Shown here piece after piece: positions 13,532-18,681 of a stretch of DNA of 27,977 nucleotides; position 1 is the first letter of the stretch, and every line of letters begins with the position of its first letter. Source of the DNA: a virus; the IMG/VR virus record IMGVR_UViG_3300013131_005621, positions 1 through 27,977 of that record; one strand, written 5' to 3'. The translations under genes were made by a program, and so were the position numbers. The notes under the pieces are model-generated. The model was not told the origin of the DNA and searched no databases. It was given only the letters and a program-made list of their open reading frames with translations.

Positions 13532-13954
13532 ATGCCGACAACTCGCGAAACCGTCCTCTCCGCGCTCCTCGCGCGGCTGCAGCCGCTTGCCGCCCTCACC
13601 CTGCGCGACGAGGTCCTGCCCGAGCGAGTTCCGGCGGCGGGGCTGATCATCCTGCGCGACGGCCAGCCCGGCGATCCAGAAGTCACGCTGTCGCCACTGC
13701 GATACCACTACCAGCACCGGGCCGAGCTGGAGGTCGTCATCCAGGCGGGCAACGGACGGGCCAACGCCTTTGACAATCTGATCGCCGCCATCGGTGCGAC
13801 GTTGGAGGCCGACCACACGCTCGGCGGGCTCTGCGACTGGGTCGAACCCGAAGCTCCGGCCTCGGTCGATCTGCCCATCGAAGGCGCGGCTGCTCTGAAG
13901 GCGGCGCTGATCACCATCGTGCTGCATTACACCACCACCGGGCCGCTGGCCTGA
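13532..13954 (+). CDS. Putative tail terminator (gpU-like)
   Basis: A 140-residue protein at the lambda U position, between DUF6441 and the tail tube gene. It starts MPTTRETVLSALLARLQPL, a helix typical of minor tail protein U-type and tail terminator proteins. A beta-rich middle follows (GLIILRDGQPGDPEVTLSP, YHYQHRAELEVVI), then NAFDNLIAAIGATLEAD and a final strand ALKAALITIVLHYTTT. Such proteins form a ring that caps the growing tail tube. It has a good AAAGG ribosome binding site and resumes the late operon after the inserted cassette. The assignment rests on position and secondary-structure pattern. Confidence 0.7.
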   Translation: MPTTRETVLSALLARLQPLAALTLRDEVLPERVPAAGLIILRDGQPGDPEVTLSPLRYHYQHRAELEVVIQAGNGRANAFDNLIAAIGATLEADHTLGGLCDWVEPEAPASVDLPIEGAAALKAALITIVLHYTTTGPLA

Positions 13955-13981: not shown

Positions 13982-14920
13982 ATGGCACGTGCGCAAGGCG
14001 CGCGGGCGCAGATGGCGCTTGCGTATGAGACGGTTTACGGCACCGCGCCGATCAGCGGGTTCACCAGGATGCCCTTCGCCAGCACCTCGCTGGGATCGGA
14101 ACAGCCGCTCCTGAACAGCGAGTTGCTCGGCTATGGCCGCGATCCCCTCGCCCCGATCAAGGACGCGGTGACGGCCGACGGCGATGTCATGGTGCCGATC
14201 GACGCCGAGGCCTTCGGCTTCTGGCTGAAGGCGGCCTTCGGCGACCCGATCACCTCCGGCGCCGGGCCCTACACCCATGAGTTCCGCTCGGGTAGCTGGA
14301 CCCTGCCCTCGATGGCCATCGAGACCGGCATGCCCGAAGTGCCGCGCTTTGGGATGTATTCGGGCTGCGTGCTGGACCAACTGTCCTGGCAGGTGCAGCG
14401 CTCGGGCCTGCTGACTGCCACCGCCCGGCTGGTGGCGCAGGGCGAGACCATCGCCGCCGCGACCGGCGCGGGCACACCGGCCGAGTTGGGCCTGAAGCGG
14501 TTCGGCCACTTCAACGGCGCGATCAGCCGGAACGGCGCGGCGCTGGGCAACGTGGTGTCAGCGGAAATCACCTATGCCAACAACCTCGACCGGATCGAGG
14601 CCATCCGCAGCGACGGCAAGATCGACGGGGCCGACCCGTCCATCGCCGCCCTGACCGGCCGAATCGAGGTCCGCTTCGCCGACAGCACGCTGGTGACGCA
14701 GGCGATCAACGGCGACCCCTGCGAGATCAGCTTCGCCTATGTCCTGCCCTCGGGCGAAAGCTTCACCTTCACCGCACATGCTGTCTACCTGCCGCGCCCC
14801 CGGATCGAGATTTCCGGGCCTCAGGGCGTGCAGGCGACCTTCGACTGGCAAGCCGGCAAGGCCGCCAGCCCGGCGCGCATGTGCACCGCCACCCTCGTCA
14901 ACAGCATCGCAGGATATTGA
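13982..14920 (+). CDS. Phage tail tube protein (major tail protein)
   Basis: A 312-residue protein opening MARAQGARAQMALAYETVYGTAP, the start of the tail tube family found in rhodobacterial prophages. It continues with GFTRMPFASTSLGSEQPLL, then GDVMVPIDAEAFGFWLKAAFG and later AEITYANNLDRIEAIRSDG and PCEISFAYVLPSGESFTFTAH, which are alternating beta strands. Hexameric rings of this protein stack to make the non-contractile tube. It has an AAGGAG ribosome binding site at 13970-13975, is followed by the tail assembly chaperone gene after two bases, and its position between terminator and chaperone is that of lambda V. Confidence 0.85.
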   Translation: MARAQGARAQMALAYETVYGTAPISGFTRMPFASTSLGSEQPLLNSELLGYGRDPLAPIKDAVTADGDVMVPIDAEAFGFWLKAAFGDPITSGAGPYTHEFRSGSWTLPSMAIETGMPEVPRFGMYSGCVLDQLSWQVQRSGLLTATARLVAQGETIAAATGAGTPAELGLKRFGHFNGAISRNGAALGNVVSAEITYANNLDRIEAIRSDGKIDGADPSIAALTGRIEVRFADSTLVTQAINGDPCEISFAYVLPSGESFTFTAHAVYLPRPRIEISGPQGVQATFDWQAGKAASPARMCTATLVNSIAGY

Positions 14921-14922
14921 TT

Positions 14923-15360
14923 ATGATCCGACTGAACCTGACCGCCACGCCGGAATGGCTGGAACTCGCCCCCGGCCTGCGCCTGCTGGTCGGCCCCCTG
15001 ACCACTGCCCTGATGGTTTCAGCGCGCGCCGACCCAGCCATTGAAGCCCTGCCGGAGGGTGCCAGCCAAGAGGCGCTGGCCCTCACGATGGCCAAAGCCG
15101 TAGCCCGGCGTGCTGTTCTGGATTGGGAAGGTGTGGGTGATACCCTGGGCCAACCCCTGCCCGTCGCTCCCGAGGGCATCGACGCCCTTTTGGAAATCTG
15201 GCCGGTCTTCGAGGCGTTTCAGACCCAGTACGTCGCCAAGGGACTCATCCTGGACGCGGAAAAAAACGTCTCCGCGCCCTCGCCGACTGGTCCTTCGGCG
15301 GGGGCGACCGCTATTGCGCCGCCTGCGCTGGCCCCTGCCCCGACTGCCCCGCAAGACTGA
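14923..15360 (+). CDS. Tail assembly chaperone, zero-frame product (gpG-like)
   Basis: A 145-residue protein just after the tail tube gene, at the lambda G position. Up to about residue 113 it looks like a genuine domain (MIRLNLTATPEWLELAPGLR, GLTTALM-like strand, DALLEIWPVFEAF helix). From residue 116 it turns into low-complexity Ser/Pro/Ala sequence (VSAPSPTGPSAGATAIAPPA...), while the -1 frame becomes clearly coding. In siphoviruses, the G product and its frameshifted G-T form coat the tape measure protein before the tube polymerises. ATG 14923 starts two bases after the tail tube stop. Confidence 0.85.
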   Translation: MIRLNLTATPEWLELAPGLRLLVGPLTTALMVSARADPAIEALPEGASQEALALTMAKAVARRAVLDWEGVGDTLGQPLPVAPEGIDALLEIWPVFEAFQTQYVAKGLILDAEKNVSAPSPTGPSAGATAIAPPALAPAPTAPQD

Positions 15361-15602
15361 ACCGGCCACAGACCCCAGAGGGCTGGCAGGTCTGGGATCT
15401 GGTCGGCCGCCTTGGTGGTCAGCTGCGGGTTATTCCCGGCGCAGTCCTCGGCTGGGACATGGGTGCTGCGCTGGCCATGGCCCGTGCCCTCGGCATCGAC
15501 ACCCTGATCGCCGCCGAACTGCTGCCCGAGATCGAGGCGGTGATGGTGCGCAAGCTGAACGAGCAGATGCCGGACGGCAGCGCGGCGGGCGTCAGCCCTT
15601 GA
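14923..15602 (+). CDS. Tail assembly chaperone G-T, -1 frameshift fusion
   Basis: Slippage back one base at A AAA AAC (15261-15267) joins codon 114-115 (Lys-Lys) to the -1 frame, which is open from 15267 to the TGA at 15600-15602. The fusion has 226 residues: 115 from the G frame, then 111 that start RLRALADWSFGGGDRY, then CAACAGPCPDC, then PQTPEGWQVWDLVGRLGG and a helical end. The downstream frame has no start codon far enough upstream to make more than 47 residues on its own, so it needs the frameshift. The T part would recruit the tape measure. Its last 11 bp overlap the 3' end of the antisense VapC gene. Confidence 0.8.
15261..15306 (+). promoter_or_regulatory. Programmed -1 frameshift signal (slippery site and stem-loop)
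   Basis: The zero-frame heptamer is A AAA AAC (15261-15267), a classical X XXY YYZ slippery sequence. After a 7-nt spacer comes a stem: CGCCCTCGCCGA (15275-15286) pairs with TCGGCGGGGGCG (15295-15306) over 12 bp with one G-U pair and an 8-nt loop. Site, spacer and stem length are all in the range of known bacterial and phage frameshift signals. Its placement in the chaperone gene ahead of the tape measure is the conserved location in lambda-like tails. Confidence 0.8.
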
Positions 15603-15972
15603 TCTTCTCGATCACGGTGACGCCCGGCAGGCCCTCGAAATGCCTGTCGCAGGTCAGCAGAGTCGCAGCCCGGGCCCGCGCGGTGGCGAACATGATCGCA
15701 TCCGCCGTTGCCATCTTGTGGTCGCGGCAGGCCTCGGCCGCGGCGAGGGCAATCTCGGTATCGAGCGCCACGACCTGACAGACCTGCGTGAAGGCGATCA
15801 CCTGATCCGCCTTGTCCTCGCCCACTTCGCGGGTGAGCCATTTCGCCAGTTCCAGTTGCACCATGGTCGGCACCAGCCACTCCGCCTGATCGGGCAGATG
15901 TTCGGCGACTTTCTCCCCGGTGAGTGATCCGATCAGCCATTCGATCCACGCAGACGTATCGACAAGGACCAT
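15592..15972 (-). CDS. PIN-domain toxin (VapC family)
   Basis: A 126-residue PIN ribonuclease. The catalytic acids are all visible: Asp5 in MVLVDTSAWI, Glu41 in VQLELAKW, Asp91 in ATADAIMFATA and Asp109 in LLTCDRHF. VapC enzymes cleave tRNA or rRNA when freed from antitoxin. The ATG shares one base with the antitoxin stop (TGATG), so the two are translated together. The gene lies antisense to the late genes, and its 3' end overlaps the end of the G-T reading frame by 11 bp. Confidence 0.9.
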   Translation of the reverse strand: MVLVDTSAWIEWLIGSLTGEKVAEHLPDQAEWLVPTMVQLELAKWLTREVGEDKADQVIAFTQVCQVVALDTEIALAAAEACRDHKMATADAIMFATARARAATLLTCDRHFEGLPGVTVIEKIKG

Positions 15973-16184
15973 CAGAACCGGTCCCTGCGGTCACGGAAAT
16001 CCGTGGTGGATGCGCCACGCGCGAGGCCCTGCAACGCCGCGCGCTTCGGGACCGGTACCAGCAGGACACCCGTGCCCTTGGGGATAAAGGCGAAAGTCAG
16101 CCCGGCCTCCCAATGCTGTGCACTCCGGATCGCCTTGGGGATCGATATCTGGAACTTCGAAGACAGGATTGCGGTCTCGGACAT
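15972..16184 (-). CDS. SpoVT/AbrB-family antitoxin (VapB-like)
   Basis: A 70-residue antitoxin. Its N-terminal SETAILSSKFQISIPKAIRSAQHWEAGLTFAFIPKGTGVLLVP is a swapped-hairpin AbrB/MazE DNA-binding fold (the SSKFQISIPKAIR strand-turn is the signature). The C-terminal tail (LARGASTTDFRDRRDRF) would bind the toxin active site. ATG 16184 is chosen over ATG 16190 because GGAGG lies 9 nt before it, while it is only 3 nt before the other. It would repress its own promoter. CGTAA repeats 10 bp apart lie in the gap just upstream. Confidence 0.85.
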   Translation of the reverse strand: MSETAILSSKFQISIPKAIRSAQHWEAGLTFAFIPKGTGVLLVPVPKRAALQGLARGASTTDFRDRRDRF

Positions 16185-16215
16185 GATCATACGCCTCCAC
16201 GATCGATACGCGCAA

Positions 16216-16254: not shown

Positions 16255-18681
16255 ATGGCTGAAAAGCGTGTGTCCGTCCGCCTCGTGGCCGAAGGCGGCC
16301 GCCAGGTGCGCGCGGAACTGGAAGGCATCGGCGATGCTGGCGCGCGCGGCTTTGGTCGCCTGTCCACCGAGATGGAGCAGGCCAACACGCGGCTGGCCGG
16401 TTTTGCCCGCAAGGCCGGGATTGCGCTGGCGGCCGTGACGGTTGCAGCGGCGGCGGCTGGTGTGGCGATGGTTCGTTCAGGCCTCGAGACCATCGGCGCG
16501 CAGGCGGACATGGCCGCGTCCCTAAAAACCACGGTCGAAAGTCTGCAGGTGCTGACATGGGCTGGCGAGTTGGCAGGCGTGTCGATGGGCGAAATCGAAC
16601 AGGCCACGAAGAAGCTGACCACCCGGCTGTCGGAAGCGGCCGCCGGATCGGGATCGGCCGTTGGTGCCTTGCAGCGGCTGAACCTGACGGCTGCTGAGCT
16701 TCAGTCGCTCCCACTCGACCAGCGCATCGTCGCCATTCAGGAGGCGCTGAACCGGTTTGTGCCAGAAGCGGAGCGCGCCGCCGTCGCGTCTGATCTCTTC
16801 GGCGACAAGGCGGCGCTGGCGTTTTTGCGGATCGATCCAGCCACGTTGCGCGAAGCGGCTCAGGATGTGCGCGACTTCGGTGTGGCGGTCAGCGCGGCTG
16901 ATGCTGCCCAGATCGAACGCACTGGCGACGCCATCGCCAAGCTGAGCCTGATCTGGCTCGGCCTGACCAACCGGCTGACGGCGGCCGTTGCCCCAGCGCT
17001 GGAAACCATCGCCAACACGCTGGCCGACATGGCACGCAGCACCGGGCCGATTGGCATCGCGATCAACGCCCTCTTCGACAATATCGGCCGCCTGACCACC
17101 TACGCTGCCACCTTTGCCACCCTGATGGCCGGGCGCTGGGTGGCGGGGCTGGCCGCTGCGGCCCTGTCAGTGCGCGGCCTTGCCACCGGCCTCGTCGTCC
17201 TGCGCGGGGCCCTGATCCGCACCGGCATCGGCGCGCTGATCGTTGGCGCGGGCGAGTTGGTGTTCCAGTTCACCCGGCTCGTCGCAGGCGCGGGTGGTTT
17301 CGGCGCAGCCATTGGCCTGCTGAAGGATCTGGCGCTGGAGGTCTGGGACCGCATCGGTTTGGGCGCGACCTCGGCCTGGTCGAAGATTGAGGCCAGCTGG
17401 GCCGGGCTGCAGGCCACGATCTATGGCGCAATGCACTCCTCGGTTGAGGCGGTGACCAGCTTTGGCAATTCGGCTGCTGGCATCTTCAAGGGGGCCTATG
17501 ACGCAGTGAAGGCGATCTGGGGCCAGCTGCCCGGCGCGATTGGCGATTTTGCCTTCCAGGCCGCCAACGGCCTGATCGGGGGCGTCGAGGCGATGCTGAA
17601 CGGCGTCGTCACCCGGATCAACAACTTCATCAACGGGTTGAATGCGGCACTGGACCTCTTGCCCGATTGGGCGGTCGGCGAAGGTGGGGTGCGGATCGGC
17701 ACGCTGGATCCGGTGGCGCTGGGCCGGATCGACAATCCCTTTGCCGGATCTGCCGCTGCGGCCGGAACTGCCGCCGCCGAAGCCTTCTCGGCCGCGATGG
17801 CGCAGACCTATGTCACCACGCCCGACCTCGGCCTCAACGGAATGGCGGAAGAAGCTACCTCCCGGGCCGAGGCCTGGCGCGAGGCTTCCGGCATGCTCGC
17901 CGATGCCGCCGCGCGTCCGATGCAAAGCTGGCAGGCGCTGAAGGACGCGGTTGCCGGTGCGGGAACTGAAGGTGAGGCGGCACTGGACGGGGCCGCAGAG
18001 GCTGCCGACAGGCTGGACGAGTCGATGACCGAGGCTGGCCGCGCCGCCGGTGGCGCAGGAACGGCTGCCGCGGCTGGGGCCGAAGTGGCCAAGACCGGAT
18101 GGGAAGCCACCGTGGCCACGCTCGCTGACTATGCCGCGAAAGCCCGCGATATCGGCGGCGACATCGGAAGCACGCTGGTCTCTGCCTTCACCTCGGCCGA
18201 GAATGCCGTTGGCGAGTTCGTGAAAACCGGCAAACTCGACTTCCGCGATCTGGTCACCTCGATGATCGCCGATCTGGCCAAACTCGCGGCGCGTCGGTTC
18301 ATCCTCGGCCCCATCGCCAATGCCTTGTCGGGCGCGCTGGGCGGCGCCGGTGGCATCTTCGCCAACATCCTGCACGCGGGCGGCATAGTTGGATCGCTGG
18401 GCCCGGGTCGCATGGTCCCGGCCCTGACTTTCGCCGGTGCCCCGCGCATGCACGCGGGCGGTTGGGCCGGGATCAAGCCTGACGAAGTGCCCGCGATCCT
18501 GCAGCGCGGCGAGCGGGTTTTGTCTCGCCGGGAAGCTGCTGGTTACGGCCAGGGACCGTCCTCAACACCCGCCATCAACGTCACGATCAATGCCCGCGAC
18601 GCCGAAAGCTTCCGGCAATCGCGCACGCAGGTTGCCGCTGACATTGCGCGCGCGGTGTCGCTGGGCCGGAGGGGCATGTGA
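16255..18681 (+). CDS. Phage tail tape measure protein
   Basis: An 808-residue tape measure protein of the lambda/GTA type. Residues 1-50 are a helical start (VSVRLVAEGGRQVRAELEGIG), then the hydrophobic span AGIALAAVTVAAAAAGVAM at 54-72, which is usual for these proteins. The region LQVLTWAGELAGVSMGEIEQATKKL and VFGDKA-like SDLFGDKAALAFL are conserved in tape measure proteins of this group. Long Ala/Gly-rich helices follow, with further hydrophobic stretches around residues 285-345. The C-terminal third has VSAFTSAENAVGEFVKTGKLDF and Gly-rich ALGGAGGIFANILHAGG. Length should set a tail of about 120 nm. It has an AAGGAA ribosome binding site 9 nt from ATG. Confidence 0.92.
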   Translation: MAEKRVSVRLVAEGGRQVRAELEGIGDAGARGFGRLSTEMEQANTRLAGFARKAGIALAAVTVAAAAAGVAMVRSGLETIGAQADMAASLKTTVESLQVLTWAGELAGVSMGEIEQATKKLTTRLSEAAAGSGSAVGALQRLNLTAAELQSLPLDQRIVAIQEALNRFVPEAERAAVASDLFGDKAALAFLRIDPATLREAAQDVRDFGVAVSAADAAQIERTGDAIAKLSLIWLGLTNRLTAAVAPALETIANTLADMARSTGPIGIAINALFDNIGRLTTYAATFATLMAGRWVAGLAAAALSVRGLATGLVVLRGALIRTGIGALIVGAGELVFQFTRLVAGAGGFGAAIGLLKDLALEVWDRIGLGATSAWSKIEASWAGLQATIYGAMHSSVEAVTSFGNSAAGIFKGAYDAVKAIWGQLPGAIGDFAFQAANGLIGGVEAMLNGVVTRINNFINGLNAALDLLPDWAVGEGGVRIGTLDPVALGRIDNPFAGSAAAAGTAAAEAFSAAMAQTYVTTPDLGLNGMAEEATSRAEAWREASGMLADAAARPMQSWQALKDAVAGAGTEGEAALDGAAEAADRLDESMTEAGRAAGGAGTAAAAGAEVAKTGWEATVATLADYAAKARDIGGDIGSTLVSAFTSAENAVGEFVKTGKLDFRDLVTSMIADLAKLAARRFILGPIANALSGALGGAGGIFANILHAGGIVGSLGPGRMVPALTFAGAPRMHAGGWAGIKPDEVPAILQRGERVLSRREAAGYGQGPSSTPAINVTINARDAESFRQSRTQVAADIARAVSLGRRGM

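Follow-up and report, generated by a model that had tools for sequence, protein, structure and literature searches.

The window, that is the whole 27,977-base virus record that was analysed, carries a siphovirus tail module in its middle. The module runs from a tail terminator to the distal tail genes (Table 1). Family and profile matches give the order tail tube, G, T, tape measure, which is the position of the tail assembly chaperones. Gene G extends from its ATG to a stop codon at 15358-15360, as read directly from the sequence. T overlaps G in the -1 frame and ends with a stop codon at 15600-15602. The longest open reading frame with a start codon in this -1 frame has 47 aa and begins with an ATG. 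As in lambda-type pairs, the two frames sit between the genes of the major tail protein and of the tape measure protein, and T is without a start of its own.

Table 1 Features of the tail module and of the G/T locus in the window
Feature	Position	Strand	Remarks
Tail terminator	13532-13954		Member of the tail module
Tail tube protein	13982-14920	+	5' neighbour of G; PF18906 Phage_tube_2, E 1.7e-56
Gene G, short tail assembly chaperone	14923-15360	+	145-aa zero-frame product
GTG-started open frame	15110-15778	+	222 aa, third frame; crosses G, T and the PIN gene
Slippery heptamer A AAA AAC	15261-15267	+	Zero-frame codons GAA AAA AAC
T part, -1 frame	15267-15602	+	111 codons and a stop follow the slip; contains the Cys4 motif and DUF7697
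Spacer	15268-15274	+	7 nt; from sequence and RNAfold
Putative stimulatory hairpin	15275-15306	+	12-bp stem 15275-15286 / 15295-15306, 8-nt loop 15287-15294
PIN-domain gene and AbrB-like 72-aa gene	15592-16190	-	PIN domain PF01850, E 1.7e-17; between T and tape measure
Tail length tape measure protein	16255-18681	+	3' neighbour; phrog_8462, E 3.8e-222; PF09718
Distal tail genes			3' part of the tail module

The PIN-domain and AbrB-like genes form a VapBC-like pair. This cassette is found in 18 of the 189 loci compared below, the window counted in. About 653 bases separate the T stop from the tape measure start in the cassette loci that were inspected (the window, L027, L029 and L031), and T and the tape measure gene overlap by 8 bases in most relatives. 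The GTG-started frame is probably a chance product of the GC-rich sequence.

RNAfold returns exactly the helix seen in the sequence, with one U-G among its 12 bp and an energy of -28.9 kcal/mol (60 nt). The predicted G-T fusion has 226 aa; ALADWSFGGGDR is an example of a predicted T peptide located N-terminal to the first internal ATG. AAAAAAC is not rare by itself, being found once in the window for 0.68 occurrences expected. The stability of the stem corresponds to a z of -1.55 against dinucleotide shuffles of the sequence (66% GC) and of -2.45 against shuffles with synonymous T-frame codons. The hairpin alone is therefore only moderately unusual for such a GC-rich sequence. The single-sequence case being moderate, the site stands above chance because of its conservation across the 189 loci. 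Among the Lys codons of this phage's genes, AAG outnumbers AAA (87 vs 29); the slip codon is nonetheless AAA. Reading of the sequence also shows a Shine-Dalgarno-like AAGGG about 18 nt 5' of the heptamer, a distance that exceeds the spacing of dnaX-type stimulators.

For comparison, we collected 189 distinct loci, window included, from IMG/VR, from one genome per species and from phage records. They span close relatives to lineages about 35% identical in T. T lies in the -1 frame of G in all 189 loci and a perfect X XXY YYZ heptamer is found at the same position in 187 of them (A AAA AAC in 181, G GGA AAC in 5 and A AAA AAA in 1). The two broken sites belong to L030, with A GAA AAC, and to L211, where an assembly N adjoins the site. 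In L030 the altered heptamer is located at 2501-2507, though G, T and the stem are otherwise intact. It may reflect a sequencing error, a decayed prophage or a weak site; with A GAA AAC, re-pairing in the P site should not occur. In three relatives (L249, L250 and L252), G stops one codon past the heptamer while T continues.

Codon constraint was analysed in 153 dereplicated, ungapped relatives. Synonymous codon diversity in the zero frame is about 0.3-0.5 along G and drops to 0.00-0.02 from the GAA of the slip site onward, the heptamer itself showing no synonymous variation. Entropies at the three zero-frame codon positions are 0.37/0.22/1.05 in upstream G and 0.24/0.71/0.33 downstream of the site. 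Hence, variation is concentrated at zero-frame position 3 upstream and at position 2 downstream, where the -1 frame has its wobble base. Thus, the -1 frame is under selection from the heptamer on.

The stem was examined in the same collection. Among 121 distinct stems, all 12 pairs are kept in 83 and at least 11 pairs in 103. In 25 chosen sequences, 94.7% of the cells are paired, vs 40-57% in slid controls, and three pairs have changes on both sides. Few of 500 shuffles match these pairing values, a count that is inflated by related sequences and does not represent a probability. Against shuffles keeping T-frame codons synonymous in 46 loci, the natural stem region has a mean stability advantage of 1.9 sd; its energy is lower than the shuffle mean in 43 of these loci. 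In the most divergent lineages, the hairpin is weak or adopts another register. RNAalifold gave no useful common helix for 20 divergent sequences, because the stem changes register in the ARAKW lineages. Downstream RNA structure is thus conserved beyond its coding, non-uniformly in the most divergent lineages.

These data bear on a sequence-only reading of the window, which had described a complete -1 signal joining G to T. Its coordinates are exact, and the homologue alignment that it suggested as a check shows the heptamer kept and the -1 frame under coding constraint. Sequence and wobble pattern agree with its view of a -1 frame coding to 15602 with no start-codon frame above 47 aa, and its fusion length of 226 residues is correct.

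G matches phrog_313 "Tail assembly chaperone" (E 1.2e-21). Together with the gene order, this match bears out the tail chaperone function that had been proposed for the locus. Chaperones of tail assembly or of the tape measure recur among the BFVD structure matches of G (best E 8.3e-4). Rows from phage records were left out of the alignments used for structure models. The AlphaFold model of G is confident for residues 10-110 or so and structured to about residue 116; afterwards pLDDT is 40-56, and the zero-frame C-terminus is modeled as a disordered Pro/Ala tail, in line with the low-complexity Pro/Ala stretch already noticed after the site. Because the model is disordered after residue 116 or so, this tail looks like a by-product region. 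VIA-align listed two PDB entries for the G model, both weak: 5ir0 (Z 4.4) and 2ob9, the HK97 chaperone (Z 4.1; 6% identity and an rmsd of 5.3 over 87 residues). The latter Z does not suffice to establish a common fold. Search of the PDB using Foldseek revealed nothing significant for G or T, and at the sequence level the G profile had no match in the PDB. The T profile retrieved weak matches only, including RING-box zinc proteins at E of about 0.6; they were not trusted.

T is composed of two parts. PF24752 (DUF7697) matches residues 57-105 (E 7.5e-28; 96.7 bits for a curated cut-off of 27) and is found at E 0.01 or better in 40 of 43 homologues. The N-terminal part contains four Cys (C19, C22, C26 and C29) that are invariant in the 43 homologues and are encoded only past the slip. 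The AlphaFold model of T has a mean pLDDT of 89.5. In the models, the structured part of G ends and the first helix of T begins at the slip site, so that this helix would continue the last helix of G. We tentatively propose that the T parts constitute a separate family, whose Cys4 element could bind zinc and help to hold a tail tube subunit; we regard this as possible but somewhat doubtful.

Altogether, sequence comparison makes it almost certain that the locus, which lies in the tail module of a Rhodobacterales siphovirus or prophage, uses -1 programmed ribosomal frameshifting. G, of 145 aa, would be the product of most ribosomes. In a minority of them, tRNA-Lys on AAA and tRNA-Asn on AAC would shift back by one base on A AAA AAC as the 12-bp hairpin holds the ribosome. 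Reading on in the -1 frame would then yield the 226-aa fusion, with the predicted junction DAEKN-RLRALADW. KKRLR had been expected earlier as the junction peptide. Tandem slippage predicts EKNRLR instead, which is probable because Asn would be incorporated at AAC before slippage. On the model of lambda gpG/gpGT, G may bind the tape measure protein while the T part would recruit tail tube subunits. We infer the occurrence of slippage, its efficiency, the junction residue and these assembly roles; the fusion would likewise be made and required for tail assembly. According to the review by Atkins et al. (PMC5009743), slippage in E. coli is far less efficient on A AAA AAC than on A AAA AAG; a low fusion ratio may therefore be expected. 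In GeneTack tests, two HK97-like chaperone genes gave 6-7% (PMC3711429).

The fusion could also be read without any ribosomal slip if RNA polymerase added an A within the A7 run. The run has the form G A7 C and one extra A would open the same -1 frame, with EKKR in the product. Such transcriptional slippage is very unlikely because the five G GGA AAC loci, which have only three A in a row, keep the frame relation, and because the run has exactly 7 A in 179 of the 189 loci, and not more. A conserved hairpin at ribosomal spacing also suits a ribosomal signal. A mutation or a sequencing error might instead have split one former gene, homopolymer runs being a common place for errors. Conservation refutes this possibility, since isolates, metagenomes and genomes share the -1 relation across all 189 distinct loci.

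Finally, T might be a separate protein made from the internal start ATG 15459, as pipelines annotate it (DUF7697). The records of Synechococcus phage Sc-Yong805-1 and Nostoc phage Nsp-JY21 indeed give the end of T its own ORF, and DUF7697 and phrog_11212 begin near this ATG. However, constraint on the T frame starts at the heptamer, 66 codons 5' of ATG 15459, and an internal start leaves the constraint on residues 1-66 unexplained. This codon also lies 3' of the first helix and of all four invariant Cys, and no conserved start codon precedes these elements: in 187 of 189 loci, no ATG for T is observed from -60 to the first Cys codon. No homologue was found in which a conserved start codon replaces the heptamer, a situation that the sequence-only reading had named as one that would speak against it. 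Initiation at ATG 15459 as the source of T is thus highly improbable.

With a programmed ribosomal frameshift, the site is an ordinary case of the lambda G/GT kind, that is the already known short/long chaperone trick usual in long-tailed phages. In the lambda-type pair, the fusion is made in low ratio to G and both proteins are absent from the virion; G binds the tape measure protein and T binds the tail tube protein. The comparison with lambda concerns gene order, reading frame, slip site and the domains of T. In both cases, the genes are located between tail tube and tape measure genes, T is in the -1 frame with no start codon and the slip occurs near the end of G. In contrast, lambda uses G GGA AAG where A AAA AAC is found here, and the present T differs by its Cys4 motif and DUF7697 domain. 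Rhodobacter capsulatus phages RcOceanus, RcKemmy and relatives have homologous proteins (37-41% identity for G, 53-54% for T). The frame relation and the site are the same, and the two pieces are annotated as a joined CDS, tail assembly chaperone. Unlike in the window, the heptamer is G GGA AAC and T overlaps the tape measure gene directly, with no inserted cassette. The paper describing Rhodobacter capsulatus phages implies this frameshift for most of its phages (PMC8601537). For viruses with archaeal hosts, a passage of the review cited above (PMC5009743) gives g-t sites with A AAA AAC in HCTV-2 and G GGA AAC in HCTV-1; the likeness to these haloarchaeal viruses is one of heptamers.

Annotation of the locus varies. 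In Sc-Yong805-1 (OP858991.1, 225-1163 and 1163-1860), the G and T parts are annotated as two unjoined hypothetical proteins. The gene at the tail tube position is annotated there as "site-specific tyrosine recombinase". The annotation at this locus is likely wrong. The earlier statement that standard annotation misses T entirely does not hold, since RcOceanus and RcKemmy carry T in their joined CDS. Moreover, DUF7697 and phrog_11212 start at T residue 55-57 and cover about its last 50 residues. Both families leave out residues 1-56 (15267-15428), the Cys4 half. Apparently, the two families are truncated because internal start codons had been used to call the ORFs behind them.

The present locus adds a broad, well-supported example of G/GT frameshifting in phages and prophages of Rhodobacterales. 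DUF7697 and phrog_11212 represent the C-terminal end of a frameshift product, and its N-terminal half, with the invariant Cys4, is absent from both models. The annotation of T can be corrected accordingly.
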